NCBI RefSeq assembly: GCF_001298735.1
Contig: NZ_CYSP01000006.1
Coordinates: forward strand, 1 to 64,000
DNA: 64,000 nt
Source: Propionispora sp. 2/2-37
Lineage (GTDB): Bacteria; Bacillota; Negativicutes; Propionisporales; Propionisporaceae
Direction of reading: 5' to 3'
Shown: positions 17,194-48,868 of the stretch, piece after piece
Position numbering within the stretch: position 1 is the first letter of the stretch
Layout of the letters: each line of letters opens with the position of its first letter
The notes under the pieces: model-generated
Told to the model about the DNA's origin: nothing
Databases searched by the model: none
Seen by the model: the letters and a program-made list of their open reading frames with translations, nothing else
Made by a program: the position numbers and the translations under genes

Positions 17194-17612
17194 TTTGTTT
17201 CATTTGAGGTGCCTTTGATGGCATTATATAGTCAGGATCTTTTGGGAGCAGGTGGCAGGGGCTAACATTCCGGATATTTCCAGATGACTATCAAGGTTTC
17301 ACGCTGCTTAGTCGTTCGTATTCCACCAAAGTATCGATGTGGAGCGAATTGTGTAAGAAACAATCGAAGCAATATTCCTGATAACTTTTGTCTTTGAATT
17401 AATAAGATCAATATACCGAATTAGGTGTTTTTGGTCTTTTTTTGTTTTCAAAACCAAGACATATTGGGCGTACGGGAGACATATACGTTATATGTATGGA
17501 CAAAAGGCGGTCCAGCGGCTGAACCTTATTTTTTTTTGCTGGTAAGGAGATATCAATTCATCAAACTTGTTGGCGAATTGTTATAAGTGAAATGCTGAGA
17601 GGAGCAATCAGG
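17194..17612. other. Long leader or promoter region upstream of the glycogen island
   Basis: About 420 bases without a supported gene. It holds a perfect inverted repeat ACATATA-CGT-TATATGT at 17479-17495, an operator candidate 118 bases before glgC. T-runs at 17436 and 17528 are present but I cannot build a terminator from them. A short open stretch on the minus strand (17291-17397) lacks a start codon; it may be a coding remnant. Confidence 0.5.
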
Positions 17613-18794: not shown

Positions 18795-18828
18795 AGTGAG
18801 TTTGCTAAAAGATTTGGGGTGATACGTT

Positions 18829-19929
18829 TTGGAAAACATAATGGCAATTATTGCACTGGATGGAAGCGAAGAAAGACTATCGGATATGACCAGGAAAAGG
18901 CATATGGCAGTTTTACCTTTTGGCGGGGAGTATTGTATTATTGATTATCTGTTGTCGAATATGGTGAATTCAGGAATCTGCCGTGTTGGTATATTGCTGC
19001 AGGGGCCGTATCGAACAGTAATAGAATATTTGCGTTCGGGTAAAGAGTGGTACTTGGCAGGTAAACAGGGAGGTTTGTTTTTTTTACCGCCATTTTCCGG
19101 CAGTAATCATAGTGTAGTGAATTTTTATCATAATTTGGATTCGATTGAACAGTGTCAACAGGAGTATCTATTTATTACGGGCAGTACCATTGTTTGCAGT
19201 GTCGACTATCGGGAAGTTGCATCCCTGCACCTGGATAGACAGGCAGATATCACCGTTTTGTACAGCAAAGAGAGCCGGACGGGCGATAATCAGGGTAAGG
19301 AGGCAGTATTTGATGTTGCGAAAGATAATAGAGTACGGAAGGTAAGCTGTGTTTCCTATAACCAGGGAGAACAGAGCGTATCTATGGATATGTATTTCAT
19401 CAGAAAAAGCTTATTTGTTGATCTGCTATGTTCCTGTTACCGGGAAGGCGGCTTGGATCTAGGCTGGGATTGTTTTTGGAAATATGCTGACAGGCTGCGG
19501 ATTTATGGCTGGCAGCATGTCGGCCCGATAGCAAGGATTAACTCCTTAAAATCCTATTACCGGCACCAAATGCAACTGCTGGCAGTAGATGCCTGCCAGC
19601 AGCTTTATCTTAGTGGAAAAAACGTATACACCAAAGCGCAGGATGAACCTCCGGCCTCTTATTTGACGGAAGCTGTTGTTGCCAATGCCCTGATTGCCAA
19701 TGGTTGTGTTGTTGAGGGAAAAGTAGAAAATAGTATTTTGTTTTCCGGAGTTTGTGTTAATAAGGGCGCTGTAGTGAAAAACAGCATTATTATGCCGGGA
19801 TGCAGGATCGAGGAAAATGTACGTTTGGAAAATGTGATTTGTGACCAGAATGTGCATGTCGGCCAGGGCAGACAGTTGCAAGGATCGCAACAAAAACCAT
19901 TGTTTGTGGAGACTATTACCAGTATATAG
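18829..19929 (+). CDS. glgD: GlgD-type ADP-glucose pyrophosphorylase subunit, copy 1
   Basis: 366 residues, homologous to GlgC. The catalytic loop is absent: where GlgC has [12 protein letters not shown], this protein has [33 protein letters not shown] and LRSGKEWYL are the GlgD-typical stretches, with a beta-helix tail (NSILFSGVCVNKGAVVKNSI). In Firmicutes, GlgD forms a heterotetramer with GlgC and tunes its activity. The start is a TTG at 18829, 5 bases after GGGGTGAT; the next in-frame ATG (18841) is too far from it. Probably co-transcribed with glgC1 and glgP1. Confidence 0.92.
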   Translation: MENIMAIIALDGSEERLSDMTRKRHMAVLPFGGEYCIIDYLLSNMVNSGICRVGILLQGPYRTVIEYLRSGKEWYLAGKQGGLFFLPPFSGSNHSVVNFYHNLDSIEQCQQEYLFITGSTIVCSVDYREVASLHLDRQADITVLYSKESRTGDNQGKEAVFDVAKDNRVRKVSCVSYNQGEQSVSMDMYFIRKSLFVDLLCSCYREGGLDLGWDCFWKYADRLRIYGWQHVGPIARINSLKSYYRHQMQLLAVDACQQLYLSGKNVYTKAQDEPPASYLTEAVVANALIANGCVVEGKVENSILFSGVCVNKGAVVKNSIIMPGCRIEENVRLENVICDQNVHVGQGRQLQGSQQKPLFVETITSI

Positions 19930-19975
19930 TCCGACTTGTTTCCTGAAATTTACAGGAGGGAAGGGGAGAGCCGGT

Positions 19976-22405
19976 TTGTATTTTGATAAAGAAAGATTCA
20001 AAGAAGAATTTATTCAAAAATTGCAGTCCATGCAAGGGATGAGTCTGGAGGAAGCCAGCGTGAATGATCAATATCTGGCTTTAGGTGCCACTATTCGGGA
20101 TTATATCAGTCGCAAGTGGATTCAAACCAAAAGACAATATCAGGAAAAAAACGATAAACAAATTTATTATTTTTCCATGGAATTTTTGTTGGGAAAATTG
20201 CTGGATATGAATTTGATTAATATGGGCATTAGAGAAGAATGCCGGGCGGCACTGCAGGAATTAGGGATTGATCTGTCACTGTTGATTGAAGCAGAACCGG
20301 ATGCCGGACTGGGCAACGGAGGTTTAGGAAGGCTGGCGGCCTGCTTGCTGGATTCTATGGCTGCCATGCATCTTCCGGGACATGGGTGCGGTATCCGTTA
20401 TAAATACGGTTTATTCGAGCAGAAAATTGTGGATCATCATCAGGTTGAATTGCCGGACAACTGGTTAAAAGACGGTTATGTCTGGGAGTACCGCAGACCG
20501 GAGAAAAGTGTGGAAGTCCGGTTCTGGGGTCGTGTAACGCAGATTGTGCAACCGGATAAATGGCTGTTTATTCACGAAGATTATGAACCTGTTCTGGCGG
20601 TTCCTTATGATATCCCTATGGTCGGTTATCACAATAATACGGTAAATACGTTGCGGTTATGGAGCGCTGAACCGGCTCAGTTAGATTTTGACCTGTCCTC
20701 TTTTAACCGGGGGGATTATATCCGGGCAGTGGAGTACCGGCATTCGGTGGAACGTATTTCTAAAATTCTCTATCCGGATGACACGCACTATGAGGGACGG
20801 CTTTTGCGGTTAAAACAGCAGTATTTTTTTGTTTCTGCCGGACTGCAAAGTATCCTGAGCGACTATAAGCGAAAAAACCGCCTATGGCAGGGCTTACCGG
20901 ATAAAATTTCCGTCCATATTAATGACACGCATCCGGCGCTGGCTATACCTGAATTGATGCGTCTGTTGATGGATGAGGAGGGGCTGGGCTGGGATGAGGC
21001 CTGGACAATTACTACCAGCACGGTTTCTTATACCAACCATACCACTCTGCCGGAAGCACTGGAACGCTGGCCGGTTGATATGGTAAAAAGTTTGTTGCCG
21101 CGCATCTACATGATTATTTGTGAAATTCACGAACGGCTATGCTATACGATATGGGAACAGACGAAAAACTGGGATTTATTGCGGGAAATTTCTATTATTG
21201 CTGATGGCGAGATCCATATGGCCAGGTTGGCTGTGACAGGCAGTTATAGCGTCAACGGGGTGGCGCAACTCCATACCGATATTCTGAGAAAAAACATTTT
21301 TGCCGGTTTTCACAGCTGGCAGCCGTATAAATTTAATAATAAAACCAACGGCATTACCCATCGGCGCTGGCTGATTAAATCCAATCCGCTGCTGGCGAAG
21401 CTGATTACCGATACAATTGACGGCAGCTGGATAAAATATCCTTGGGATCTGATTCAACTGTTACGCTATACCGATGATGAAGAAGTGCAGCAGCGTTTTT
21501 GTGAGATTAAAAGAAGGAATAAAGAGGCTCTGGCAAAATTTATCAAAAATAAATATCAGATTGCCGTTAGTACCGACTCCATTTTTGATGTGCATGTCAA
21601 GCGGATTCATGCTTATAAACGGCAAATTTTAAATGTGCTGCACATTATGCATTTATATAATCAACTTAAGGAAAATCCGGATTGGGATATAGTACCACGG
21701 ACTTTTATTTTTGGCGGCAAAGCGGCACCGGGGTATTATATTGCTAAACAAACCATTAAATTGATTAATGTTTTGGCAGAAATTATCAATCATGACAACA
21801 GTATTCAGGGGAAGCTGAAGGTCGTGTTTCTGGAAAACTATAGTGTGTCTCTTGCCGAGTTGGTGGTACCTGCCGCTGATGTCAGTGAACAGATATCCAC
21901 AGCCAGCAAAGAAGCTTCTGGTACGGGAAATATGAAATTTATGATGAATGGTGCCGTTACAATCGGTACAATGGATGGAGCCAATATTGACATAAAAAAT
22001 GCAGTTGGCGATTCTGATATTGTCATTTTTGGACTGACTGCCCAGCAGGTGTTTGATTACTATGCTTTTGGCGGCTATAATGCCTGGGATATATATCATA
22101 ATGACAGCCGCATCAAAAGGGTATTGGATGAATTGATCAATGGATTTTTTCCTAACGAAAAAGAAGAGTTCCGGCCTTTATATAACGATCTGTTGCCTAA
22201 TAATGATGAATACTTTGTTTTAAAGGATTTTTCCGGTTATAGTGAAGCGCAGCGGATAGTGGACAACAAATTTCGCAACAAGCAGGGATGGTGCAGTATG
22301 GCTCTTGCTAATATTGCTCATTCCGGCATATTTTCCAGTGACCGGATGGCTTCAGAATACTCCGTAGGTATTTGGAAAATTAAGCCGCATATTATTACAG
22401 GCTAA
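19976..22405 (+). CDS. glgP: Glycogen/starch phosphorylase, copy 1
   Basis: 809 residues, GT35. Phosphorolyses alpha-1,4 glucan ends to glucose-1-phosphate. The PLP-binding lysine is Lys654 in EASGTGNMKFMMNGAV; the N-terminal SMEFLLGKLL, the glucan-site DAGLGNGGLGRLAACLLDSM and HINDTHPALAIPELMRLL are all intact. The start is TTG at 19976, preceded by AGGGGAG; the open frame extends further upstream into glgD1, but the N-terminus aligns with the third copy from here. Ends at a strong terminator, so glgC1-glgD1-glgP1 appears to be one transcription unit. Confidence 0.95.
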   Translation: MYFDKERFKEEFIQKLQSMQGMSLEEASVNDQYLALGATIRDYISRKWIQTKRQYQEKNDKQIYYFSMEFLLGKLLDMNLINMGIREECRAALQELGIDLSLLIEAEPDAGLGNGGLGRLAACLLDSMAAMHLPGHGCGIRYKYGLFEQKIVDHHQVELPDNWLKDGYVWEYRRPEKSVEVRFWGRVTQIVQPDKWLFIHEDYEPVLAVPYDIPMVGYHNNTVNTLRLWSAEPAQLDFDLSSFNRGDYIRAVEYRHSVERISKILYPDDTHYEGRLLRLKQQYFFVSAGLQSILSDYKRKNRLWQGLPDKISVHINDTHPALAIPELMRLLMDEEGLGWDEAWTITTSTVSYTNHTTLPEALERWPVDMVKSLLPRIYMIICEIHERLCYTIWEQTKNWDLLREISIIADGEIHMARLAVTGSYSVNGVAQLHTDILRKNIFAGFHSWQPYKFNNKTNGITHRRWLIKSNPLLAKLITDTIDGSWIKYPWDLIQLLRYTDDEEVQQRFCEIKRRNKEALAKFIKNKYQIAVSTDSIFDVHVKRIHAYKRQILNVLHIMHLYNQLKENPDWDIVPRTFIFGGKAAPGYYIAKQTIKLINVLAEIINHDNSIQGKLKVVFLENYSVSLAELVVPAADVSEQISTASKEASGTGNMKFMMNGAVTIGTMDGANIDIKNAVGDSDIVIFGLTAQQVFDYYAFGGYNAWDIYHNDSRIKRVLDELINGFFPNEKEEFRPLYNDLLPNNDEYFVLKDFSGYSEAQRIVDNKFRNKQGWCSMALANIAHSGIFSSDRMASEYSVGIWKIKPHIITG

Positions 22406-22406
22406 A

Positions 22407-22445
22407 CAAAAGAAGGAGTGCCGCTCGCTGGCACTCCTTCTTTTG
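22407..22445 (+). terminator. Terminator after glgP copy 1
   Basis: A perfect 16-bp stem, CAAAAGAAGGAGTGCC with GGCACTCCTTCTTTTG, loop GCTCGCT. The right arm itself ends in a T-rich run. Confidence 0.85.
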
Positions 22446-22545
22446 TTGTTGTTTTAGGCGGATGAAAGTAGAACGGTATAAATTATTGCTGTGCCAGATA
22501 AAATAAAGGTTGAGGGTCTATAGAGGTCAGTTAAGGAGGATTATC

Positions 22546-25110
22546 ATGAATTTTAGTAAGGAAATCTTAAAAAAAACGCGTTCTTTCAGCATGAATCATT
22601 CTGAACCGATAAGCGAAAGACCGGTAGATATTCCGCCCTTTTCCGCTATGCCGGTTACTAAGGAACGTTTCCGGCAGGAGTATATAACCAAACTGGAATT
22701 GATGTACGGTGATGATGCAGGGCATACTTCGAGTTTGGAAAAATATAATGCATTAGTTTCATTGGTCAGGGATTATTTGGCACAGCAGTGGAAAAAGACG
22801 CGGGCGCACTATCGCCGTACCGGTACAAAACAGGTCTATTATTTTTCCATAGAATTTTTGTTAGGGCGATTACTGGGAGCAAATCTATTTAATTTGGGTT
22901 TAACGGAAATATGTCGAGAGGCTTTGGCGGAACTTAACATTGATTTACATGAACTGGAAAAAATTGAAGAGGATCCCGGGCTGGGAAATGGCGGTCTGGG
23001 ACGGCTGGCTGCCTGTTATCTGGATTCTATGGCCGCAAAAAATCTGCCCGGACATGGGATGGGAATCCGTTATCGTTATGGATTGTTTGAACAGCGGATT
23101 ATTGACGGATACCAGCGGGAATTTACCGATGACTGGCTGATGGATGGCTTTTACTGGGATATACGCAAACCTGCCGAGGCGGTGGAGGTTAGGTTTGGCG
23201 GCAGGGTAAGAATCAAGAGCAACGGCAAAACGCAGTATATTCATGAAAACTATGAAACGGTGCTGGCGGTCCCTTATGATGTCCCGGTTGCCGGTTATCG
23301 CAACGGACTGGTTAATACGCTGCGTTTATGGAGCGCAGAAGCCAAGCTTAGTGATATAGCCTGCCATTCTGACGAAAGCAAGGATTGTCAAAAGGCAGTG
23401 GAGTTTAATCATGCCGTGGAAGAGATATCGAACATCCTGTATCCGGACGATACCACTTATGAGGGAAAAGTATTGCGCTTAAAACAACAGTATTTTCTGG
23501 TATCAGCCGGATTGCAAAGTATTTTGCGCAACTATAAAGAGCAGAACGGACATCTTAAAGAATTGCCGCAAAAAATAGCCATTCATATCAATGACACGCA
23601 TCCGGTGTTAACCATACCCGAACTGATGCGTATATTGATAGATGAGGAAAAGCTGGAGTGGGATGAGGCATGGAAGATAACGGTGGAAACCATCTCTTAT
23701 ACTAATCATACTATTTTGCCGGAAGCGTTGGAAAAATGGCCGGTTGATTTGTTTAAACAGGTATTGCCGCGAATTTATATGATTGTAGAGGAAATTAACG
23801 AGGGCTTTTGCCGTTCTTTGTGGGAACGGTATCCGGGAGAGTGGGACAGGATCAGTGCCATGGCGGTTATTTCCTATGGGCAGGTGCATATGGCGCACTT
23901 GGCGATCGCCGGGAGCCATAGTGTAAATGGAGTGGCTGCGCTGCATACAGAGATATTGAAACATAAAGTGATGCGGCTCTTTTATGAGTTTTCCCCTGAA
24001 AAATTTAATAATAAGACCAATGGCGTGACGCAGCGCCGCTGGCTGGCTCAGTGCAACCCGCCGGTGGCAGCGCTCATAACGGATACGATCGGTGCGGAAT
24101 GGATCGAGTCACCACAACATTTAATCAAATTAAAACAGTATGTGGAGGATTCCGGTTTTCAACAATATCTGTCCAGAGCTAAATTGCAAAATAAGGTCAT
24201 GCTGGCCAAATACATTAAAGGGAAATATGATATTTCGCTTGACATAAATTCCATTTTTGATGCCCATATCAAACGCATTCATGCCTATAAGCGCCAAACG
24301 CTTAATATCCTGCATATTATGGATCTGTATAACCGGCTGAAAGATAATCCCCTGCTGGATATCACTCCCCGTACGTTTATTTTTGGCGGTAAAGCGGCCA
24401 GCAATTACCATATTGCCAAAGCGACCATTAAATTGATCAACAGTCTGGCGCAAACGGTGAATAATGACAAAAGTATTCATGACAAAATTAAAATAATCTT
24501 TATGGAAAACTATAATGTATCGCTGGCCGAACTGATTATTCCGGCGTCCGATGTCAGTGAACAAATTCCCACGGCCAGCTATGAAGCATCTGGAACCGGC
24601 AATATGAAATTTATGATGAACGGTGCCGTTACCATTGGTACGCTGGATGGGGCCAATATTGAAATAAAAAATGCGGTAGGTGAAGAAAATATCATTGTAT
24701 TTGGTCTGACGGCCGATGAAGTGCTCCAATATTACCGGTATGGGGGGTATAACCCCTGGGATGTATATAATAGTGATCAGCGGGTTAGGACTGTTGTGGA
24801 ACAACTGATTAACGGATTTTTACCTGCGGGCAAAGAGGTATTCCGGGATCATTATGACAGTTTGTTGCATCAGGGTGATCATTTTTTTGTATTAAAGGAT
24901 TTTGCTTCCTATGTACAGGCGCAAAATATTTTGGAAGAACGATTTAGAAATAAAGCAAGATGGCTGAAAATGTGCGCCTGTAACATTGCTCACTCCGGAG
25001 CTTTTTCCAGTGACAGGACGTTTTCAGAATATGCTGCAGAAATCTGGGGTGTGAGACCGCAGCGGCTCGGGAACGGAAACGGGAACCGGAGTACCGGACC
25101 GGTCAATTAA
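22546..25110 (+). CDS. glgP: Glycogen/starch phosphorylase, copy 2
   Basis: 854 residues, the longest of the three. About 35 extra N-terminal residues precede the shared RFRQEYITKLELMYG start, and there is a basic, Asn/Gly-rich C-terminal tail (GNGNGNRSTGPVN). The PLP lysine is Lys688 in EASGTGNMKFMMNGAV. GlgP1 and GlgP3 share the segment RRPEKSVEVR/RRGDRAVEVR where this copy has RKPAEAVEVR, and it also differs in the linker after LRLWSAEA. It is therefore the most divergent copy and may prefer a different glucan or have its own control. ATG at 22546, after AAGGAGGA. It stands alone between a terminator and a 167-base gap. Confidence 0.95.
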   Translation: MNFSKEILKKTRSFSMNHSEPISERPVDIPPFSAMPVTKERFRQEYITKLELMYGDDAGHTSSLEKYNALVSLVRDYLAQQWKKTRAHYRRTGTKQVYYFSIEFLLGRLLGANLFNLGLTEICREALAELNIDLHELEKIEEDPGLGNGGLGRLAACYLDSMAAKNLPGHGMGIRYRYGLFEQRIIDGYQREFTDDWLMDGFYWDIRKPAEAVEVRFGGRVRIKSNGKTQYIHENYETVLAVPYDVPVAGYRNGLVNTLRLWSAEAKLSDIACHSDESKDCQKAVEFNHAVEEISNILYPDDTTYEGKVLRLKQQYFLVSAGLQSILRNYKEQNGHLKELPQKIAIHINDTHPVLTIPELMRILIDEEKLEWDEAWKITVETISYTNHTILPEALEKWPVDLFKQVLPRIYMIVEEINEGFCRSLWERYPGEWDRISAMAVISYGQVHMAHLAIAGSHSVNGVAALHTEILKHKVMRLFYEFSPEKFNNKTNGVTQRRWLAQCNPPVAALITDTIGAEWIESPQHLIKLKQYVEDSGFQQYLSRAKLQNKVMLAKYIKGKYDISLDINSIFDAHIKRIHAYKRQTLNILHIMDLYNRLKDNPLLDITPRTFIFGGKAASNYHIAKATIKLINSLAQTVNNDKSIHDKIKIIFMENYNVSLAELIIPASDVSEQIPTASYEASGTGNMKFMMNGAVTIGTLDGANIEIKNAVGEENIIVFGLTADEVLQYYRYGGYNPWDVYNSDQRVRTVVEQLINGFLPAGKEVFRDHYDSLLHQGDHFFVLKDFASYVQAQNILEERFRNKARWLKMCACNIAHSGAFSSDRTFSEYAAEIWGVRPQRLGNGNGNRSTGPVN

Positions 25111-25277
25111 AAAAACATAAACAAAGAGAAAGAAGTCGGGCTGCTGTAGTGGGCAGCTCTTTACATTTGTAGAAAATCCAGGGAGAATAGCAGGAATTTT
25201 CTTAATTTCCAGCGAATGACTAGCATATAACCTAGTTGAGTTTATAGAGGATATCCTACAGCGCTGGAGGGTCAAAT

Positions 25278-27731
25278 ATGGCCAAAGTGGATCGAACGCC
25301 CATGGGGGAAGTGGAAAAGTTCAAGGTGGATTTTTTATATAAACTGCAAACTCTCCACGGCAAAGAACTTGACGAATCAAGCCTAAATGATAAGTATGCC
25401 GCCCTTGTTGGGGTTCTCAAAGACCGTATTAGTCGGAATTGGGTTGCTACCAATCATGACTACAGTACACGAGGGCGCAAGCAGGTCTATTATTTTTCGA
25501 TGGAATTTTTACTGGGCAAACTGTTGCCGGTGTATTTGATCAACATGGGACTTTATGATATTTGCCGCGAGGCTTTGTCGGAACTGGGAATTGAACTAAA
25601 AGAACTTGAACAGGAAGAGCCGGATGCCGGGCTGGGGAATGGCGGCTTAGGCCGGTTAGCAGCTTGTTTTATGGATTCGGTTGCCGCGTTAAAGCTACCC
25701 GGACATGGTAACGGCATCCGGTATCGCTATGGTCTGTTTGAACAGAAAATTGTTGACGGCAACCAAGTGGAACTTCCCGATAATTGGCTGAAAGATGGTT
25801 ATGCCTGGGAGTACCGCCGGGGGGACCGGGCTGTAGAGGTGCGATTCGGGGGCATGGTTCGTTTGGAACCTGGGTATAATAATAAACTGTCCGTTATTCA
25901 CGAAAACTATGAAACGGTGCTGGCGGTGCCTTATGATATTCCCCTTATTGGGCATGAAAATCATACGGTCAATACGTTACGGCTGTGGAATGCCGAACCG
26001 GTTGAAGAAGAGTTTGACCTGCCGACATTTAACCGCGGCGATTACCTAAAGGCTGTGGAATACAAACATTCTGTTGAGCGGATATCTAAAATACTATATC
26101 CGGAGGATAATTTTTATGAGGGGCGGGTATTAAGGCTAAAACAACAGTATTTTTTTGTATCGGCAGGGCTGCAAAGCATTATCCGCCGTTTTAAGAAAAA
26201 CAGGCGTTCTATTCGGAATTTGGCCGATAAGATCACCGTTCATATTAATGATACACATCCGGCGGTGGCTATCCCGGAACTTATGCGAATTCTGATGGAT
26301 GAAGAAAGGATGGGCTGGGATGATGCCTGGAAAATTACCACACATACCGTTTCCTATACTAATCATACCATCCTGCCGGAAGCCCTCGAAACATGGCCTG
26401 TTGATATGTTCAGAGAACTGCTGCCACGTATTTATATGATTGTGGAAGAGATCAACGAGCGGTATTGCCGGCAGCTTTGGATAAAGTATCCGGGCCAGTG
26501 GGGTAAAATTGCCCAAATGGCCATTGTGGCCGACGGACAGGTGCATATGGCCCGACTGGCCGTGGTTGGCAGTTTCAGCGTCAATGGTGTGGCCGCTTTG
26601 CATACGGAAATCATAAAAAAACATTTGTTCCAGCATTACTATGACCATACCCCGCATAAATTTAATAATAAAACCAATGGTATTACTCATCGCCGTTGGC
26701 TGCTCAGCGCTAATCCGGGCTTGTCCGCATTGCTGACGGAGACGATCGGAAAGAGCTGGATCGAACATCCGGAAGATCTGGTTAACCTGTTGAAGTATGA
26801 CGGCGATGCGGGTTTTCAGGAACGGCTTAGACAAGTGAAAATGGCCAATAAAGAAAATCTGGCAAAGTTCATTAAAGCTCATTATGGCATTGCCGTAGAG
26901 GAGTCTTCCATATTTGATGTGCAGATTAAGCGCATCCACGCCTATAAACGGCAGTTGCTGAATGTTTTGCGCATTATGGATTTATATAACCGTCTTAGGG
27001 AGAATCCGGATCTCGATATCATGCCGCGTACCTTCATTTTTGCCGGCAAGGCTGCGCCGGGGTATTATCTGGCCAAGCAAATTATAAAATTAATTAATGT
27101 GCTGGCCAACCAGATTAACAGGGATGAACGGATCAAGGAAAAAATCAAGGTGGTATTTTTAGAAAACTATAGTGTTTCTCTGGGAGAAATGATTTTTCCC
27201 GCCGCTGATGTCAGTGAGCAAATATCAACGGCCAGCAAGGAAGCGTCCGGAACGGGAAACATGAAGTTTATGCTCAATGGTGCCGTTACCGTTGGAACGA
27301 TGGACGGTGCTAATGTGGAAATTCATCAGGCGGTGGGTGATGACAATATGTTTATTTTTGGGCTGAGCTCCGATCAGGTGATTGACTGGCAGCGTTATGG
27401 CGGTTATAGGGCCTATGAAGTTTATAATAACGACATCCGCCTCAAAACCGTGCTGGATCAAATGCTCAGCGGGTTCCTTCCCGGCGGCAGGGATGAGTTC
27501 CGGGTTATTCATGACTCGTTAATCCGGGATAATGATGAATTTTTTGTTTTGAAAGATTTTGCTGATTATGCCGATACGCAGGAGCGTCTGGACAGGACGT
27601 TTCGGAATCAGCGGCAATGGGCGAAGATGAGCATCCATAATATTGCCCATGCCGGGATATTTTCCAGTGACCGCAGCATAGCTGAATACGCCATTGGAAT
27701 CTGGAATATTAAACCGGTAGAAATTGTTTAA
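25278..27731 (+). CDS. glgP: Glycogen/starch phosphorylase, copy 3
   Basis: 817 residues, closest to copy 1 in sequence. The PLP lysine is Lys663 in EASGTGNMKFMLNGAV; the N-terminal VYYFSMEFLLGKLL and HINDTHPAVAIPELM motifs are intact. ATG after CTGGAGGG. The intergenic region before it carries a GCAGGAATTTTC...GCGAATGA motif at 25190-25219, seen in similar form before two other genes. Followed after 150 bases by glgB. Confidence 0.95.
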   Translation: MAKVDRTPMGEVEKFKVDFLYKLQTLHGKELDESSLNDKYAALVGVLKDRISRNWVATNHDYSTRGRKQVYYFSMEFLLGKLLPVYLINMGLYDICREALSELGIELKELEQEEPDAGLGNGGLGRLAACFMDSVAALKLPGHGNGIRYRYGLFEQKIVDGNQVELPDNWLKDGYAWEYRRGDRAVEVRFGGMVRLEPGYNNKLSVIHENYETVLAVPYDIPLIGHENHTVNTLRLWNAEPVEEEFDLPTFNRGDYLKAVEYKHSVERISKILYPEDNFYEGRVLRLKQQYFFVSAGLQSIIRRFKKNRRSIRNLADKITVHINDTHPAVAIPELMRILMDEERMGWDDAWKITTHTVSYTNHTILPEALETWPVDMFRELLPRIYMIVEEINERYCRQLWIKYPGQWGKIAQMAIVADGQVHMARLAVVGSFSVNGVAALHTEIIKKHLFQHYYDHTPHKFNNKTNGITHRRWLLSANPGLSALLTETIGKSWIEHPEDLVNLLKYDGDAGFQERLRQVKMANKENLAKFIKAHYGIAVEESSIFDVQIKRIHAYKRQLLNVLRIMDLYNRLRENPDLDIMPRTFIFAGKAAPGYYLAKQIIKLINVLANQINRDERIKEKIKVVFLENYSVSLGEMIFPAADVSEQISTASKEASGTGNMKFMLNGAVTVGTMDGANVEIHQAVGDDNMFIFGLSSDQVIDWQRYGGYRAYEVYNNDIRLKTVLDQMLSGFLPGGRDEFRVIHDSLIRDNDEFFVLKDFADYADTQERLDRTFRNQRQWAKMSIHNIAHAGIFSSDRSIAEYAIGIWNIKPVEIV

Positions 27732-27766
27732 AATAATCTAACAGGGTATGCAAGATGGAACACTGT

Positions 27767-27818
27767 CAAGGAGATATAGCTGCAAGCCAATTGCCGTCGT
27801 GTCTCCTTGTTTGTTTTC
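27767..27818 (+). terminator. Possible terminator between glgP copy 3 and glgB
   Basis: CAAGGAGA at 27767 pairs with TCTCCTTG at 27802-27809 around a 27-base loop, followed by TTTGTTTTC. The large loop makes it doubtful. Confidence 0.4.
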
Positions 27819-27881
27819 TGCCGGGCATTTTCGTTAAAGCGGCAGCCGGTACACCGCAACATCTGGTGAGGAGGGCTAAAA

Positions 27882-29807
27882 ATGGACATCTCCATGCTAT
27901 CGGAAGAAGATTTGTATTTATTTCATGAGGGAAGTAATTTTCGCAGTTATCAAATGCTGGGGGCACATGTGCTTACATGTGACGGGGCGGCCGGCGTAAG
28001 ATTTGCGGTCTGGGCGCCAAATGCCAGGGAAGTGCATGTAGTTGGCGATTTTAATGTTTGGGACGGGCAGGCCCATAGCATGCGGCGCGTCGGGGAATCC
28101 GGAATATGGGAGTTATTTATTCCGGAACTAACTGTTGGTGATTTATACAAATATGAAGTACATAGTCTTGACGGCAGCAAATTTTTAAAAGCAGATCCTT
28201 ATGGCTTTTATTCGCAGTTACGGCCGGATACAGCTTCCGTTGTTTGGGACTTGTCTGATTATGCCTGGCAGGACGGTGTCTGGCAGGCTGACAAGCGTGA
28301 GCAAAACATTTTGGAAAAACCGGTTTTAATTTATGAAGTTCACCTGGGCTCATGGCGGTGTAAAGCGGACAATAAATGGATGAACTACCGGGAATTTGCC
28401 GGGCAATTGGTTGAGTATGTCCTTGAAATGGGCTATACCCATATTGAACTGTTGCCGCTTGCCGAACATCCGCTGGATGCATCCTGGGGCTATCAGTCCA
28501 CCGGCTACTTCTCGGTTACCAGCCGCTACGGTACACCGCAGGATTTTATGTACTTGGTGGACTTGTGCCATCAGCAGGGCATCGGTGTTATCTTGGACTG
28601 GGTTCCCGGTCATTTTTGCAAGGACGCTCATGGACTGCGCCTTTTTGACGGTACCTATCTGTATGAATCGGATAATCCGCAACGCCGTGAAAATGAGGAA
28701 TGGGGGACTTGTAACTTTGATTTCGGCCGGCCGGAAGTAAGAAGCTTTCTGATATCCAATGCATTGTTCTGGCTGGATGTATATCATATTGACGGCCTGC
28801 GGGTTGATGCCGTTGCCAACATGTTGTATCTCAATTATGGCAAGAAGGAAGGGGAGTGGTCGCCGAATCAATACGGGGAAAACGGCAACCTGGATGCCAT
28901 GCATTTGCTTAAACGGGCAAATGAGGTGATTTTTCAGCATCATCCCGGTGTCATGATGATTGCAGAAGAGTCTACCTCCTGGCCGATGATATCCTGGCCA
29001 ACCCATGTTGGCGGCATGGGCTTCAATTTTAAATGGAATATGGGGTGGATGAATGACATGCTGCGCTATATGGCTGTAGACCCGCTTTACCGCAAGGAGA
29101 ACCATAATCTGATTACTTTTTCGTTAATGTATGCTTTTTCCGAAAATTTCATCTTACCCTTGTCTCATGATGAAGTAGTTCATCTGAAAAAATCATTATT
29201 GGATAAAATGCCGGGAGATTATTGGCAGAAATTTGCCAACCTAAGAGCTTTTTATGGATACTGGATGACACATCCGGGTAAAAAGTTATTGTTCATGGGC
29301 GGAGAGTTTGGCCAGTTTAGCGAATGGCAGTATCAATACAGTTTGGACTGGCATTTGCTCAATTATGACATGCATCGGAATTTGCAGCAGTATGTACGGG
29401 ATTTGAATCGTTTCTACCGGAATGAGGCGGCCCTGTGGGAAATTGATTTTAAGTGGAACGGATTTCAGTGGATTGAATGCAATGATTATATGCAAAGTAT
29501 TCTCAGCTTTATTCGCCGGGGGCATGATCCGGGGCAGTTTGTGATTGTGATATGCAATTTTACACCTGTGGTGAGGGAAGAGTATCGCATTGGGGTTCCG
29601 GAAGCCGGTTTTTATCGGGAGGTATTTAACAGTGACAATGAAGTTTATGGAGGATCGGGCCAGAAAAATCAGGTACCGGTAGAAGCCGAGCCGGTTGCCT
29701 GGAATCACCAGCCATACTCGTTGTTACTGCGGATTCCTCCGCTAGCTACGGTATACTTGAAGCTGATCGGGAAAGGAGAACAGGAAAGTGGATTGAGTGC
29801 TGTTTAG
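27882..29807 (+). CDS. glgB: 1,4-alpha-glucan branching enzyme
   Basis: 641 residues, GH13. Cuts alpha-1,4 chains and rejoins them as alpha-1,6 branches. The N-terminal CBM48-type domain contains [21 protein letters not shown]. The catalytic barrel has Asp309 in [13 protein letters not shown], Glu362 in MIAEEST and the third aspartate in [10 protein letters not shown]. The C-terminal beta domain ends in [21 protein letters not shown] after GGTGAGGAGGG. Leads the second glycogen set, glgB-glgC2-glgD2-glgA, with tight spacing. Confidence 0.96.
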
Positions 29808-29827
29808 TATTAGGAGGGGGCGAGCGT

Positions 29828-30994
29828 ATGAGAAAAGAGTGTGTAGCCATGCTGCTGGCGGGCGGACAGGGCAGCAGGCTGGGAATTTTGACGCAGAAGC
29901 TGGCTAAGCCGGCCGTGCCGTTTGGCGGCAAGTACCGCATTATTGATTTTGCCTTAAGCAATTGCAATAATTCAGGAATTGATACTGTAGGTGTGCTTAC
30001 CCAGTACAAACCGTTGGCCTTGAACAGTTATATCGGGATTGGCAGTGCCTGGGATTTGGACCGTAAAGACGGAGGCGTGTTTGTTCTTCCACCGTATGCC
30101 AAGGAAAAGGAAGCGGAATGGTATAGAGGCACCGCAGATGCCATCTATCAAAATATCAATTTTTTAGATATGTTTCATCCATCCTATGTATTAATCTTAT
30201 CCGGCGATCACATTTATAAAATGAATTATTCCCTGATGCTAAAACATCATAAAGAACAGGAGGCCGACGCCACGATAGCTGTTATTGAGGTGCCCTGGGA
30301 GGAGGCCAGCCGTTTTGGTATTATGAATACGGCTGACGGCGGGCGCATTACGGAATTTGAGGAAAAGCCCCAAAAGCCCAAAAGCAATCTGGCATCCATG
30401 GGTATCTATATTTTTAACTGGAACATTTTACGGCAGTATCTGCTGGAAGATGGCAAAGACGAAAAGTCCAGCCGCGATTTTGGCAAAGACATTATCCCCA
30501 AAATGCTGGCCGGCGGGCAGAAAATGTTTGCCTACTCCTTTAGTGGTTATTGGAAGGACGTGGGGACGGTAGATAGTTTTTGGGAAGCAAATATGGATCT
30601 TCTGGAACCGGAGCCGGAGCTGAATATCTACGACCCGGACTGGCGTATTTATTCGGTCAATCCGACCTATCCCCCGCAGTATATCGCCCCTAATGCTCAA
30701 ATCAGACAATCGATGATATGTGAAGGCTGCATGGTTTTTGGCGAAGTGGAACATTCCATCCTTTTTCCGGGAGTTTACATTGGATCCGGTGCCAAAATAA
30801 AAGATTCTGTCGTCATGTCGCAATGTCAGGTTGAAGCCAATGTCACCGTTAATAAAGCAATTATCGGACAAAAGGCCATTCTCAAAGAAGGCAGCAAGGT
30901 TGGTGGCGCTACACAAGAGATCGTACTGGTGGGCGGCGATGAAGTGATACCCGGTAACACTGCTCTTTCCAGCGAACAAGAAAGGGAGCGATGA
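29828..30994 (+). CDS. glgC: Glucose-1-phosphate adenylyltransferase, copy 2
   Basis: 388 residues, a full-length second copy with intact catalytic motifs ([56 protein letters not shown]) and a beta-helix tail. It resembles copy 1 closely and starts at the equivalent residue. AGGAGGGGG precedes the ATG. Its TGA overlaps the glgD2 ATG by 4 bases, a coupled pair that probably forms a GlgC-GlgD heterotetramer. Confidence 0.96.
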
Positions 30995-32112
30995 GTATGG
31001 ACGCAATGGGCATTATCAATCTTAACGATCCGGACGGATATATTCATGAACTGACCCAATACCGCCCTCCCGCAGGAGTCCCTTTTGGCGGCAGATACCG
31101 GCTGATTGATTTTCCATTATCGAATATGGTCAATTCCGGCATTACCAATGTAGGTATTCTCATACAGCACAAATACCGTTCTCTCATGGACCATTTGCGT
31201 TCCGGCAAGGAGTGGGATCTTGCCCGCAAGCGGGACGGTCTGTTTTTGCTGCCGCCGGCCACCTCCAATTATCCCGGCGAAGTACACCGGGGTGATGTAG
31301 ACAATTTTATCAGTAACATGGATTATCTTCTGCGTAACCGACAAAAATATGTAGTGATTTCCGGCGCGATTACAGTATGCAATCTTAACTACCGGCAGGT
31401 GCTGGATTATCATGAAAAAAAGGGTGCGGATATTACCGTAATTTACAGTGAAAAAGATTGTCACCCGGATGACGGCAGTCATGCCGTTATGGTGGATGTG
31501 GATGCCGAAGGCCGTATCTCCGATATGCAGGTGAAACCGCGGGTATTTCAGCAGAGAAGGTTATGCATGGAAAGCTTTGTCATGGAAAAAAAATTGCTTA
31601 TAAGCCTGATTCGCGATTGTGCTTCTCATGGTGATTATGATTTTATCAAGCATTGCATCATTAAACACATCGGAAAGCTAGATATTTATGGCTATCCTTA
31701 TAAAGGATATGCCGCACGCATTCATTCCGTACAAAGTTATTTCCGCCACAGTATGGATTTGTTAAAACCCGAAGTGTGGCAGGAATTGTTTTTTCGTGAG
31801 GGATATATTTATACAAAAGTAAAAGACGAGCCGCCTTCTCATTACTTGAATTATGCCAAGACCGTTAATTCTCTGGTGGCCGGTGGCTGCAGGATTGCCG
31901 GCAGGGTGGAGAACAGCGTGCTGTTCCGCGGGGTGACTGTCCATGAAGGGGCCTATATAAAAAACAGTATTGTTATGCAAAAATGTGAAATTGCCGGAGG
32001 CTCGGTTTTGGAAAATGTCATTTGCGACAAGGATGTTCAAATCGCAGCCGGGAAGCATTTGCAGGGAAATGCCCATTATCCGTTTGTAATAAAGAAAGGG
32101 ATGGTGATTTAA
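30991..32112 (+). CDS. glgD: GlgD-type ADP-glucose pyrophosphorylase subunit, copy 2
   Basis: 373 residues. As in copy 1, the nucleotide loop is lost ([20 protein letters not shown]) while the [20 protein letters not shown] and [10 protein letters not shown] stretches and the beta-helix tail remain. The ATG at 30991 overlaps the glgC2 stop; a second ATG at 30997 is possible and cannot be excluded. Ends 2 bases before the glgA start. Confidence 0.94.
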
Positions 32113-37344: not shown

Positions 37345-37473
37345 TCATTTGGTGATGGAACAAATGTACAGCAGGGAGTCTCTTTGCCATGATTAAGAAT
37401 ACAATGTTTTTCGTACAAAATTCTGTATACAAAATACTTCCTGCCATAAAAGAGATGACGGAGGATGTGGCTC

Positions 37474-38919
37474 ATGTTGCATGAAACCGAAATTACTCAA
37501 ATCAGACGGAAAGTATTATGTGCACTGTCGAAATTAACCTTTACTAATCGCTTGGAGGATCATGTGCAGGAGATTTTAGAAACGGTTGTTACGGAAAACG
37601 GCTCCCGTTATCGCTGCTGCATTCATAAGGAACGGGCGGTTCTCAAAGAACGAATCAATTTGGCATTAAGTCAGCCGATGTCCCTGCCTTTAACGGAAGC
37701 GGTGCGCCAGGCCCGCTCCGGTTATAATCCGGACATGCCGGTTGTTAATGTCATTCCGGAGGCATGTGATCAGTGTCCAATTGATAAATTTATTGTTACC
37801 GATGCCTGCCGTAATTGTTTGGCCCATAATTGCATTGCCAGTTGTCCGAAGAAGGCGATTAAAGTAATACAAAACCGGGCTTATATTGACAAAACGATCT
37901 GTGTAGAATGTGGTTTATGTAAGCGTTCCTGCCGGTATGGCGCTATTATTGAGATCGGGCGTCCCTGTGAAAGAGCCTGTTCCCTGGGAGCCATTACTGC
38001 AGGGCATGACCGCCGGGTAAGCATTAATTATGATAATTGCGTGGCCTGCGGCAGTTGCAAGCTTGCCTGCCCTTTTGGCGCTATTGACGACCAGTCTTTT
38101 ATTGTGCAGATTATAGACGCTCTTAAATCATCTGCAAGGGTTTATGCTATGCTGGCTCCGTCTTTTGTAGGACAGTTCGGTGTAAAAATAAAACCGGGAC
38201 AAATCAGTAATGCATTAAAACAGGCCGGTTTTTATGCTGTACGTGAAGTAGCGGTCGGGGCGGATGCCGTGGCGGCGGCTGAAGCCAGAGAGTTTCATAA
38301 TACGGTGCCGGAGGAAAAAAGCTTTATGACGACATCCTGTTGTCCGGCCTTCGTCAATTTGGTGGAAAAGCATATGCCGGACTTAAGGAAACATGTATCT
38401 CAGACACCTTCGCCGATGGTTATGCTCGGAAAAATGATCAAACAGGAAGACCCGGAAGCCATTATTGTATTTATTGGTCCTTGCACGGCCAAGAAAGAAG
38501 AAGCGAAAAAATCCGGCATCGTTGACTATGCATTAACCTTTGAAGAAATTGATGCTTTATTGGCCGGAGCGGGGGTTTGTTTAGCGGATATGCCGGACGA
38601 TCAATATGTAAGCCAGGCTTCCTATAGCGGCAATTTGTTCGCATGTGCCGGCGGGGTTGCCAAAGCCGTAGTCAGTGCGGCTGCCGATCTGGGATTGGAT
38701 AGTTTCATAACCACCGAACGTTGTGACGGCCTGGACAATTGCAAAACTATGCTGGCTCAGTTGAAACGCGGCAAGGTAAAAGCCGAACTACTGGAGGGTA
38801 TGGCCTGTCAAGGAGGTTGTGTAAACGGACCGGGGACAATGGCGGATTGCCGGGTTACTGCCAAACAGTTAGAGCGGTTTGCCTTTCAGGGGTCTGGTGC
38901 TGCCGGCAACTATCGGTAA
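37474..38919 (+). CDS. Monomeric [FeFe] hydrogenase, group B type
   Basis: 481 residues. The N-terminal part has CDQCPIDKF and DACRNCLAHNC, two ferredoxin-type cysteine clusters (CVECGLCKRSCRYGA and CVACGSCKLACPFGAI), then the H-cluster domain. The H-cluster motifs are TSCCPAFVNLV (Cys289), GPCTAKKEEA (Cys337) and EGMACQGGCVNGPG (Cys445 and Cys449). This pattern, with GPC rather than MPC and a phenylalanine after TSCCPA, fits the ferredoxin-linked group B clade. It has its own promoter and no maturase or bifurcating partner subunits nearby. ATG 37474 lies 9 bases after GGAGG; another ATG at 37465 directly abuts that site. Confidence 0.9.
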   Translation: MLHETEITQIRRKVLCALSKLTFTNRLEDHVQEILETVVTENGSRYRCCIHKERAVLKERINLALSQPMSLPLTEAVRQARSGYNPDMPVVNVIPEACDQCPIDKFIVTDACRNCLAHNCIASCPKKAIKVIQNRAYIDKTICVECGLCKRSCRYGAIIEIGRPCERACSLGAITAGHDRRVSINYDNCVACGSCKLACPFGAIDDQSFIVQIIDALKSSARVYAMLAPSFVGQFGVKIKPGQISNALKQAGFYAVREVAVGADAVAAAEAREFHNTVPEEKSFMTTSCCPAFVNLVEKHMPDLRKHVSQTPSPMVMLGKMIKQEDPEAIIVFIGPCTAKKEEAKKSGIVDYALTFEEIDALLAGAGVCLADMPDDQYVSQASYSGNLFACAGGVAKAVVSAAADLGLDSFITTERCDGLDNCKTMLAQLKRGKVKAELLEGMACQGGCVNGPGTMADCRVTAKQLERFAFQGSGAAGNYR

Positions 38920-45027: not shown

Positions 45028-45345
45028 CTAGGAGGTTTTTTGCCCGCTGGATATATCTTCTATGCTATGCTGTGACTCAATAGGTTGAATGGTAACGGGA
45101 ATACCGCCGGTATAGGGTGCCAGGATATTAAAGGTCAGAATAATTGCCAATCCTATTATCCCGGAGGTCAGGCCGACGGCTAAACCAATAAAGGCACCGC
45201 CGCTCAGTCCAACGGTTTCGTAGTTCATGACCGCTAGAATTAATCCCAGTAAACCGCCTAGTACGGTTCCGGCGGTAAATAAAAGTAAAAAGACTGGAAT
45301 GCAGGATACGCGGGTAATGTTATGATTGTAGTCAGACAAAATCAT
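45028..45345 (-). CDS. Small two-helix membrane protein, hypothetical
   Basis: 105 residues that I do not recognise. Two hydrophobic, glycine-rich segments (CIPVFLLLFTAGTVLGGLLG and GLAVGLTSGIIGLAIILTF) are joined by a short loop, with a polar C-terminal tail (QSHSIEDIS-like). Its start ATG overlaps the region just before the flavoprotein gene on the other strand, with GGGGTG immediately upstream; the spacing is short, so an internal start is possible. Coding status is likely from its clean length and membrane pattern. Confidence 0.6.
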   Translation of the reverse strand: MILSDYNHNITRVSCIPVFLLLFTAGTVLGGLLGLILAVMNYETVGLSGGAFIGLAVGLTSGIIGLAIILTFNILAPYTGGIPVTIQPIESQHSIEDISSGQKTS

Positions 45346-45375
45346 TCACCCCTTATTTTTTATTTGGAGGTCATT

Positions 45376-46245
45376 ATGGAAGATCAAAAATTTGATATTG
45401 CTGTTATTGGCGGCGGACCGGCCGGTTTATCGGCAGCACTTACCGGCCGGGTTCGTAATAAACAAATCGCGTTGTTTGAACATATGAATCATAGTGAGAA
45501 GCTGCAAAAAGCACATATTATTGATAACTATCTGGGGATGCCTAAAATCACAGGGCCGGGAATGATGCAGCAATTTGTTGCACACTGCATGGCGCATCAA
45601 CCTACCTTAATTAAAGAAAAGGTGGTTACCGTATTTCCGGGCGAGGATATGTTTACCTTACTGACTCCGGTTAATACTTATGAAGCACGGACAGTTATTT
45701 TAACGACAGGCGTGGTTAGCACAACGCTGTTCAAAGGAGAAAAAGCCTTTTTAGGGCGTGGTGTCAGCTATTGTGCCACCTGTGACGGTATGTTTTATAG
45801 GGAAAAGGATGTGGCGGTTATTTCCTATACCAGTGAAGGGGAGCAGGAAGCGGAGTATTTAGGAGAAATATGCCGGAATGTTTTCTATTTTCCTCAGTAT
45901 AAGCCGCAGCCTACCGCTATGCGTTCCGGAGTATCCATTATTACAGCGCGTCCATGCTCCATTGAAGGGGATACTCAGGTGGAAAAACTGATTGTGGACC
46001 AGGGGGAATATAAAGTAAACGGGATCTTTATCATGCGTCAGTCCGACCCGGTCGAAAATATTTTGCCTGGCCTTGAACTGGAGGGAGAAGTAATTAAAGT
46101 CAACCGGGATATGTCTACCAATATACCGGGAGTTTATGCCGCCGGCGACTGTACCGGCAAGCCCTGGCAGATTGCCAAGGCTACTGGAGAGGGACTGGTG
46201 GCGGTGCTGAGCGCAATCAATTATTTAGATAAAAAAGCCAAATAA
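45376..46245 (+). CDS. Thioredoxin reductase-like flavoprotein lacking NADPH motifs
   Basis: 289 residues, TrxB fold. The FAD site IAVIGGGPAGLSAALTG is at the N-terminus. The redox pair is Cys133/Cys136 in CATCDGMFY, the same place as in E. coli TrxB. The C-terminal FAD motif is VYAAGDCTG. The pyridine-nucleotide domain is unusual: the glycine motif expected after the CATC (GGGDSA in NADPH enzymes) reads SYTSEGEQ, and the arginine-rich phosphate motif (HRR) is replaced by FPQYKPQ. Ferredoxin-dependent flavin thioredoxin reductases of clostridia share this loss, so a ferredoxin donor is plausible. ATG 45376 after TTTGGAGG. Confidence 0.85.
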   Translation: MEDQKFDIAVIGGGPAGLSAALTGRVRNKQIALFEHMNHSEKLQKAHIIDNYLGMPKITGPGMMQQFVAHCMAHQPTLIKEKVVTVFPGEDMFTLLTPVNTYEARTVILTTGVVSTTLFKGEKAFLGRGVSYCATCDGMFYREKDVAVISYTSEGEQEAEYLGEICRNVFYFPQYKPQPTAMRSGVSIITARPCSIEGDTQVEKLIVDQGEYKVNGIFIMRQSDPVENILPGLELEGEVIKVNRDMSTNIPGVYAAGDCTGKPWQIAKATGEGLVAVLSAINYLDKKAK

Positions 46246-47276
46246 CCAAGTCTGACAATGAAATATAACGCCAGATAACCGACTGCCGGAAAAACCCAGG
46301 AAATTAACACTGAAAATCCCAATTGGCTGCAGAGCATGCCGGTTGCAATAATAATCAGGCTACATAGAGGAAAGCTTAATTTAGTGACATGACTCAATTG
46401 ACCGGCACAAGCGTACAGGGTGGTAGCTGCGGTTGTATACATAGCGATCAAAAACATACATACATAGGAAGTGGAATTTATTTTGTGCTGCATGCCGGCA
46501 ATGTGGAGCATAGGGATTTCATAATTGAGGATATCCGGACAATGGATCATGACGATGATGGCAATAAAGCCGGCAAGGATAGTAATGAGAAAGCCGCCGG
46601 CAATACTTCCCCAAAAACGCAGCTTGCGACTGCGGATGTGGGGACCCAGGGGCGCCAGTACGGTGGAACCTATAATTAGGTTATAGGATACATATAATAT
46701 ACTGGCGATCAGCCAATGGCTGCCGTTTTGGGGATCGTACGGAACTACATTGACCAGCATATCCGTAGAGAGTCCATGATAGGCGAGGGAATATATGCCG
46801 ACGGACAATGTGGATAAAGTCAGTAGTGGCAGCATGCCCATATTCATTACGGTAATTCCCCGAATGCCGTATAATACGGTACAAAAGGCCAGTATCCCGA
46901 TGACGCCTGTTCCCAGTGAATAGGGAAGATGAAAGTGGTCCTGGAACATGGTTCCGGTTCCGGACAGCATGATCGTCAGTACGCTAAATAAAAAAACGGT
47001 GATGATGCTGTCGAGAAATAAAGCTGCTTTTTTTCCGCAGGCATAATACAGTAACTGGTGATAGCCAGTAGCGTTCAGGCGATGTCCCAGTTCCAAAATT
47101 CTGTAGCCCAACCAGGCAAAGAGGATTCCGGCCAGAATAATTCCCCCGAAGCCAACAGTTCCATATACGACAAAAAATTGCAGTAATTCCTGTCCTGAAG
47201 CAAAACCTGCGCCAATAATGGTGCCGGCATATGCCGATGCAATCTTTATTACATCCAGTAGGTTTTGGCTGCGCAT
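46221..47276 (-). CDS. YkvI family membrane transporter
   Basis: 351 residues with about ten membrane helices and a LeuT-like start (IASAYAGTIIGAGFASGQELLQFF), matching the YkvI family of putative amino-acid or sodium-coupled transporters. The substrate is unknown. I chose ATG 47276, 8 bases after AAAGGAGG; the in-frame TTG at 47282 is too close to it. Overlaps the 3' end of the convergent flavoprotein gene by 25 bases. Diverges from serS across a 323-base region. Confidence 0.87.
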   Translation of the reverse strand: MRSQNLLDVIKIASAYAGTIIGAGFASGQELLQFFVVYGTVGFGGIILAGILFAWLGYRILELGHRLNATGYHQLLYYACGKKAALFLDSIITVFLFSVLTIMLSGTGTMFQDHFHLPYSLGTGVIGILAFCTVLYGIRGITVMNMGMLPLLTLSTLSVGIYSLAYHGLSTDMLVNVVPYDPQNGSHWLIASILYVSYNLIIGSTVLAPLGPHIRSRKLRFWGSIAGGFLITILAGFIAIIVMIHCPDILNYEIPMLHIAGMQHKINSTSYVCMFLIAMYTTAATTLYACAGQLSHVTKLSFPLCSLIIIATGMLCSQLGFSVLISWVFPAVGYLALYFIVRLGYLAFLSK

Positions 47277-47429
47277 AGCCAATACCTCCTTTACCCGTAC
47301 GATTCGGATGAGAAACCATGGTCGTTTATATAAACAATACTTTTTATAGCTGAGGTTTATGCCGGTATTTTTACAAATTATCGCAGAGGTATGTTGCAGT
47401 TAAAAAAACAACATGCAATTTGTTTACGC

Positions 47430-47599: not shown

Positions 47600-48868
47600 A
47601 TGCTGGATATTAAATTTATTCGCGATAATACGGAGAAAGTACGTCAGGCGCTGGAAAATCGTTCTGCTTCCCAGAATTTGGATGAGTTCATTAGGCTGGA
47701 AAAACAGCGACGTGAATTGTTAAGTGAAGTGGAAGGCCTTAAGAATAAACGGAATGTCGTATCACAGGAAATCAGTAAGTTGAAAAAAGCCAAAGAAAAT
47801 GCCGATGAGTTAGTTGCTGAGATGAGAAGCGTAGGTGGCCGCATTGCCTTTCTGGATGCCAACATCCGGGAAGTGGAAGCCAAAATCCACGATATTGTCA
47901 TGAATATTCCCAATGTACCGCATCCTTCGGTTGTGGTTGGGAAGGACGAGACCGCCAACAAGGAAATGCGCCGCTGGGGAACACCCCGGGAGTTTGCAGA
48001 AGAACCCAGAGCTCATTGGGAAATTGGTGAAAAACTGGGCATACTGGATTTTGAACGCGGGGGCAAGGTAACCGGTGCGCGGTTTACTTTTTATCGCGGA
48101 CTGGGAGCCCGTCTGGAACGTTCGCTAATTAACTTTATGCTGGATTTACATACCCGTGAACACGGGTATACGGAATTTTTTCCGCCGTTTATAGCTAATA
48201 AGGACAGCATGACCGGAACAGGACAACTGCCCAAGTTTGCGCAAGATATGTTTAAGCTGGAAGGTCTGGATTATTATTTGATTCCTACGGCGGAGGTTCC
48301 GATTACCAATCTGCATCGTGGTGAGATACTGGACGCTAAAGATTTGCCTTTTTATTATACGGCGTACAGTGCCTGTTTTAGGGCGGAGGCCGGTGCTGCC
48401 GGCAGGGACACCAGAGGGTTGATCCGCCAGCATCAATTTAATAAAGTGGAACTAGTGAAATACAGTCTGCCGGAAGAATCGTATAATGAGTTGGAAAAAC
48501 TGACGGCCAATGCCGAACATGTACTTCAACTTTTGAATTTGCCGTACCGGGTTGTGTTGCTTAGTACGGGGGACATGGGATTTTCTTCAGCCAAGACATA
48601 TGATATTGAGGTATGGCTGCCCAGCTTTCAAGCTTACCGTGAAATTTCCTCCTGCTCTAATTTTGAGGATTTTCAGGCACGGCGGGCCGATATCAAATTC
48701 CGCCGCGGACCAAAAGAAAAACCGGAATTTGTACATACATTAAACGGCTCCGGCCTGGCAATTGGCAGAACAGTGGCGGCCATTCTGGAAAATTATCAGC
48801 AGGCAGACGGTTCGGTGGCGGTTCCGGAAGCATTGCGTCCGTATATGGGAACCGACGTCATCAAATAG
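47600..48868 (+). CDS. serS: Seryl-tRNA synthetase
   Basis: 422 residues, class II synthetase. The N-terminal coiled-coil arm ([20 protein letters not shown]...) binds the long variable arm of tRNA-Ser. Class II motif 2 is [20 protein letters not shown] and motif 3 is [23 protein letters not shown] after TTAGGAGG. It lies behind an attenuator and ends at a terminator, so it appears monocistronic. Confidence 0.97.

Follow-up and report, generated by a model that had tools for sequence, protein, structure and literature searches.

The gene at positions 45376-46245 of the 64,000-nt stretch of Propionispora sp. 2/2-37 DNA analysed here (the window) encodes a 289-aa protein that is very probably a clostridial-type ferredoxin-dependent flavin thioredoxin reductase (FFTR) in family and mechanism class, with ferredoxin as its presumed donor. 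According to the available text of PMC10880999 (2024), NTR and non-NTR TrxB occur together in most Negativicutes and Clostridia, the non-NTR type being 'probably FFTR'. Since probable FFTRs have thus already been placed in Negativicutes, the 289-aa reductase is not a new kind of enzyme. It is ordinary in itself, and the part worth specialist attention is a group of its orthologs that have lost the redox disulfide.

Gene, start site and sequence motifs

The sequence-only reading had proposed an open reading frame at 45376-46245, which was confirmed at exactly that place. An in-frame ATG is also found at 45322; we preferred the ATG at 45376 as the start because GGAGG sits five bases 5' of it. 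The gene, its motifs and its neighbours are listed below.

45028..45345, - strand: divergent gene for a small membrane protein, retained next to the reductase gene in several relatives (context); no Pfam/NCBIfam match
45366..45370, + strand: GGAGG, likely ribosome-binding site for ATG 45376; read directly
45376..46245, + strand: FFTR-type thioredoxin reductase gene, 289 aa; ATG at 45376, stop ends at 46245
45409..45426, + strand: GGGPAG codons (GxGxxG, FAD pyrophosphate motif), residues 12-17; conserved in alignments
45772..45783, + strand: CATC redox disulfide codons, residues 133-136; from sequence and alignment
45823..45840, + strand: site of the NADPH motif GxGxxA, reads SYTSEG, residues 150-155; from alignment
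45889..45912, + strand: approximate site of the 2'-phosphate motif HRRxxxR, reads FPQYKPQP, residues 172-179; from alignment
46221..47282, - strand: convergent gene for a membrane protein, also a neighbour of the reductase gene in several relatives (context); no Pfam/NCBIfam match
47600..48868, + strand: serS, marker of positional orthologs in relatives by linkage (context); TIGR00414, 570.2 bits

A promoter scan gave 7 sites against 3.9 expected, and a terminator scan 2 sites against 1.9 expected; neither result is informative.

The TrxB-type FAD motifs and the normally positioned CATC that had been claimed for this protein are present: GxGxxG occupies residues 12-17, CATC residues 133-136, and a C-terminal AAGDC is found as well. 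The claimed loss of the NADPH glycine and arginine motifs was borne out as well. In NADPH enzymes GxGxxA comes after CxxC; in the 289-aa reductase SYTSEG stands there, and HRRxxxR is absent from the stretch that follows (YFPQYKPQ). Orthologs were found in 30 of the 40 relatives searched, own genome included, and as all 30 are without both motifs, the loss is not chance decay of a damaged copy. Absence of GxGxxA and HRRxxxR is given as the mark of the non-NAD(P)H type in the available text of PMC10880999, and the NTR type was rejected for the 289-aa reductase, which has neither.

A GRG matching the thioredoxin-binding motif G(R/K)G is located ahead of CxxC at residues 127-129. Loss of this motif marks DDOR, the diflavin-linked disulfide oxidoreductase (accessible part of PMC9025218); the retained GRG speaks against that assignment. 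The DDOR structure 5ODE is not among the 50 PDB sequence matches listed for the 289-aa reductase, to which we give no weight as a test. The FF part of the thioredoxin-binding motif, named for cyanobacterial enzymes in the same source, is not a defining feature of the clostridial group: the 289-aa reductase has FY there, and the two C. acetobutylicum FFTRs have LY.

Family placement

The likeness to clostridial FFTRs asserted by the sequence-only reading was upheld by sequence search and by phylogeny. The three best distinct sequences in a phmmer search against the PDB were 6gna (8.9e-74), 6gnd (2.2e-72) and 6gnc (3.9e-70), a group carrying the PDB title ferredoxin-flavin thioredoxin reductase from C. 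acetobutylicum; the next best was the NADPH enzyme 4zn0 (1.4e-34). The general equivalog TIGR01292 scored 193.1 bits, under its cut-off of 343.45, a shortfall that is expected if the subfamily is divergent.

Two unrooted trees were built. In the first, of 111 rows (L088, L089 and L092 left out), the 289-aa reductase falls in a clade of Negativicutes proteins with 32 rows (99/97). This is nested in a larger FFTR clade of 52 rows (98/94), to which the two C. acetobutylicum FFTRs also belong. None of the 52 has either NADPH motif, and the 35 two-motif enzymes lie on the other side. The second tree, of 68 rows, recovered the same FFTR grouping (99/95); from it L184, L187, L197, L199, L205, L207 and L214 of the divergent set were left out, as were, for speed, many close orthologs and clostridial rows. 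The Prochlorococcus FFTRs (L064, L084, L087) stand outside the clostridial FFTR clade in the 111-row tree, a poorly supported placement which gives a weak hint of more than one origin for ferredoxin-dependent flavin enzymes.

The C. acetobutylicum FFTRs (6GNA/6GNB, 6GNC, 6GND) resemble the 289-aa reductase in length, FAD motifs, CATC, loss of both NADPH motifs, predicted open fold and a short C-terminus without the cyanobacterial tryptophan tail. They differ in that identity is 41-44%, the present host is a Negativicute and no thioredoxin gene is linked here. Compared by description, Clostridioides difficile TrxB1 and TrxB4 are likewise non-NAD(P)H TrxB clustering with clostridial FFTRs; their genes lie in operons together with trxA genes, whereas the gene at 45376-46245 adjoins none (available text of PMC10880999). 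The Gloeobacter violaceus FFTR (5J60, 6XTF), for which ferredoxin has been shown to be the donor, shares the fold class and the open form, but it is about 26% identical and has a C-terminal tail with a stacking tryptophan. Desulfovibrio vulgaris DvTRi (5NII) is also an NAD(P)H-independent low-molecular-weight reductase; unlike the 289-aa reductase, it belongs to another clade, has retained a GxGxxA-like stretch and carries a T(Q/N)G motif where NTR has HRRD (accessible part of PMC5627308). Within the class, its relatives are almost always in different genomes from those with an FFTR. The DvTRi type was ruled out for the 289-aa reductase, which has no GxGxxA-like stretch with T(Q/N)G, lies in a separate clade and has 6gna, not 5nii, as its best PDB match.

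Predicted fold

A single-chain AlphaFold2 model of the 289-aa reductase, made from 17 window and locus sequences, had a mean pLDDT of 84.8 and a pTM of 0.67. An overlay on known structures, which the sequence-only reading had named as a check on itself, was run on this model and agreed with that reading: the clostridial FFTR 6gnc was the best PDB match (TM 0.87, rmsd 3.1), followed by the Gloeobacter FFTR at about 0.77, against about 0.55 for NADPH enzymes. A second aligner gave Z 33.9 for 6gnc (2.6 A over 281 residues), Z 27.4 for the Gloeobacter FFTR 5j60 and Z 24.9 or less for NADPH enzymes, mostly at 9-14 A, as a different orientation of their domains would produce. By prediction only, the FAD and CxxC domains of the 289-aa reductase are in an open arrangement; training data may account for part of the resemblance between the model and open FFTR crystals. 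The predicted fold bears on family and domain arrangement, not on the electron donor.

A thioredoxin reductase that uses NADH or NADPH through an atypical nucleotide pocket would share the overall fold and the CATC, which are of the NADPH-family type, and Pyr_redox_2 is the best Pfam match of the protein. Such an enzyme is nevertheless very unlikely here: GxGxxA and HRRxxxR are both gone, the trees place the protein with FFTRs and not with NAD(P)H enzymes, and the best NADPH enzyme is about 40 orders of E-value behind the best FFTR. A regular NADPH enzyme was ruled out by motifs, tree and fold together.

Electron donor and proposed cycle

We infer ferredoxin as the donor of the 289-aa reductase because the FFTR family is described as ferredoxin-reduced in Clostridium and Gloeobacter (PMC12796991, PMC9025218, PMC8469568, accessible parts). 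By analogy with characterised relatives, the enzyme would be a homodimer with thioredoxin as acceptor and would work by a domain swing. In the proposed cycle, the open homodimer would dock reduced ferredoxin, from which FAD would receive two single electrons. The CATC domain would swing inward, and FADH- would then reduce the CATC disulfide; after an outward swing, the dithiol would reduce thioredoxin.

Electrons might instead come from another low-potential carrier, such as flavodoxin or another Fe-S protein, with thioredoxin still being reduced. This is open for DvTRi, whose donor is given as unknown although NAD(P)H is excluded (available text of PMC5627308), and the sole FFTR-ferredoxin complex among the PDB titles seen is the Gloeobacter 6xtf. 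We consider another carrier unlikely, since the enzymes nearest to the 289-aa reductase come from C. acetobutylicum and bear the title ferredoxin-flavin thioredoxin reductase, and since the host genome offers candidate small ferredoxins.

The host genome (4.1 Mb in 43 contigs) contains 27 Fer4_10 matches, of which five over the cut-off, in frames of no more than 109 aa, are candidate free ferredoxins. Contigs C6, C1 and C9 carry candidate frames for such small ferredoxins. A ferredoxin-type hydrogenase in the same window had been cited in favour of ferredoxin. It is indeed present (window 37465-38919, monomeric [FeFe] hydrogenase group B1, TIGR04105 572.9 bits vs cut-off 450); at a distance of about 6.5 kb, however, it adds almost nothing as an argument for the donor.

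Two thioredoxins were found in the host genome, both away from the reductase gene: L034 with WCGPC and L035 with WCGYC. Besides the reductase the genome has one TrxB-like protein (L002) and one AhpF-like protein (L003), the rest being trace or dehydrogenase-size matches, and none of its TIGR01292 matches is a TrxB with both NADPH motifs. The second TrxB, L002 (contig C14, 414-1322), scored 326.8 bits, below the TIGR01292 cut-off of 343.45; it keeps GSGNSA and reads VRKAYRAD at the HRRxxxR site. Therefore, the canonical NADPH motif pair is complete in neither of the genome's TrxB proteins. L002-like proteins were found in many relatives, and this type is perhaps NADH-linked.

Neighbourhood of the reductase gene

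Within the window, no thioredoxin or ferredoxin gene adjoins the reductase gene. Neighbour conservation was analysed by tblastn at ten non-f15 loci outside families f11 and f25. At 9 of the 10, all but G012, serS was within a few kb of the reductase gene, and at 8 of these the two genes shared a strand. The convergent membrane protein was kept at 5/10 loci and the divergent small one at 4/10. These conserved neighbours, two uncharacterised membrane proteins and serS, point to no partner. A strict thioredoxin motif scan of 1.5-4 kb flanks was positive at 2 of 72 loci, neither in Negativicutes, and this is a weak negative because at a locus outside the 72, that of a more distant relative in G249, a thioredoxin-like ORF adjoins the reductase gene.

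Elsewhere in the window, a glycogen cluster spans 17592-32112. It includes two glgC/glgD pairs and, in tandem, three genes for glycogen phosphorylase (19841-22405, 22510-25110 and 25278-27731).

Distribution of FFTR and DvTRi-like reductases

In a draw of 250 genomes of the class, each at least 90% complete, an FFTR match (E <= 1e-50) was obtained in 86 and a DvTRi-like protein (query L119, E <= 1e-45) in 75. The best PDB match of L119 is 5nii (9e-62), titled DvTRi. The two occur together in 4 genomes, against about 26 expected (Fisher p 7e-12, uncorrected for relatedness and hence overstated). These four (G032, G060, G084, G120) all have a disulfide-less form of FFTR and a DvTRi-like gene near a thioredoxin gene; within the draw, no genome is shared by a DvTRi-like protein and an FFTR read as intact. 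We met no earlier account of this near exclusion in the literature searched.

DvTRi-like reductases are common in this class (L119, L117, L116, L118 and L121, besides the 75 of 250 genomes). The available text of PMC5627308 lists 17 DvTRi homologs, in Deltaproteobacteria and Clostridia, and explains that DvTRi was named for being isolated, in contrast to the DvTRi-like genes of the four shared genomes with their nearby thioredoxin genes.

Orthologs without the redox disulfide

Of the 86 FFTR proteins, 79 were read for CxxC (those of G042, G045, G048, G061, G097, G117 and G221 being left out); it is kept in 68 and lost in 11. The 11 disulfide-less proteins (L032, L033, L182, L186, L188, L190, L192, L194, L195, L201, L202) all belong to family f15; in the 68-row tree they make up a single clade (100/100), with intact f15 copies as its sister group. 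The second cysteine is replaced by V, I, R or G, and in the G177 protein (L201), which reads SAKV, the first is gone as well. No earlier account of disulfide-less FFTR forms was met in the literature searched. Their existence would allow the 289-aa reductase, too, to have drifted to a flavoprotein role without thioredoxin; the CxxC kept in it and in the other 67 intact proteins read from the draw makes such drift extremely improbable.

The serS gene lies directly downstream, on the same strand, at all 11 disulfide-less loci (gap 33-158 bp by alignment ends), and since this linkage matches that in other families of the class, vertical descent of these orthologs is suggested. It was not within the stretch read at any of the seven intact f15 loci checked (G144, G165, G168, G104, G080, G112, G068), so these seven copies have relocated or are of other origin, which complicates the picture. 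One FFTR copy of f15, in G168 (L215 and L255), has an intact CATC and one internal stop codon.

The disulfide-less orthologs are under strong purifying selection. Nei-Gojobori dN/dS among the 11 was 0.02-0.11 (6 of 7 pairs with a value), which argues that they are not decaying, and 0.05-0.14 for intact pairs (5 of 7); saturation left 3 of the 14 pairs without a value, and dS was near or above 1 in several of the remaining pairs. The predicted fold of L033 is FFTR-like (pLDDT 84.3, TM 0.87 to 6gnc, in a single-chain model, where tail stacking is not visible), and its best PDB sequence match is also 6gnc (2.1e-67).

A C-terminal extension with an aromatic residue is found in 10 of the 11 disulfide-less proteins, seven of which end in I-x-Y, and in none of the 17 intact rows of the same alignment, although the short end of L213 finishes in Tyr. 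Flavin stacking is described for a tail tryptophan in the Gloeobacter FFTR and for an aromatic residue in NTR-type ferredoxin-NADP reductases (accessible part of PMC12796991).

Seven of the 11 genomes have an apparent thioredoxin-TrxB fusion frame of 426-476 aa, a thioredoxin match followed by a TrxB match (G032:C29, with L124 and L233; G060:C10; G084:C21; G120:C20; G159:C44; G171:C31; G177:C10). In G052 a TrxB adjoins a thioredoxin. In G017, G064 and G100 no other TrxB-like protein was found at E <= 1e-15 beyond frames of 421-466 aa, the size of lipoamide dehydrogenase, and in G100 no thioredoxin was found. Three genomes are thus left with no visible replacement. The disulfide loss is one event, and its association with replacement rests on few independent cases.

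To a more far-reaching reading we give somewhat less than an even chance. The gene at 45376-46245 would represent, in intact form, a serS-linked lineage from which a new kind of flavoprotein arose in f15: the second cysteine would have been lost once, and in G177 the first too; an aromatic tail would have been gained, recalling the Gloeobacter FFTR and NTR-type ferredoxin-NADP reductases; and the FAD motifs and purifying selection would have been retained. The f15 proteins would route ferredoxin electrons via FAD to an acceptor other than thioredoxin. Across the class, FFTR and DvTRi-like proteins would substitute for each other as NAD(P)H-independent thioredoxin reductases, the FFTR disulfide being lost mostly where another thioredoxin reductase took over.

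The 289-aa reductase itself is a clear case, from outside Clostridium, of thioredoxin reduction with an apparent link to ferredoxin, set in a genome where the canonical NADPH phosphate motif is absent from both TrxB proteins. That FFTR and DvTRi-like reductases so rarely share a genome could help to identify the DvTRi donor, and the disulfide-less orthologs would be a natural experiment on the role of a ferredoxin-linked flavin once the disulfide is gone.
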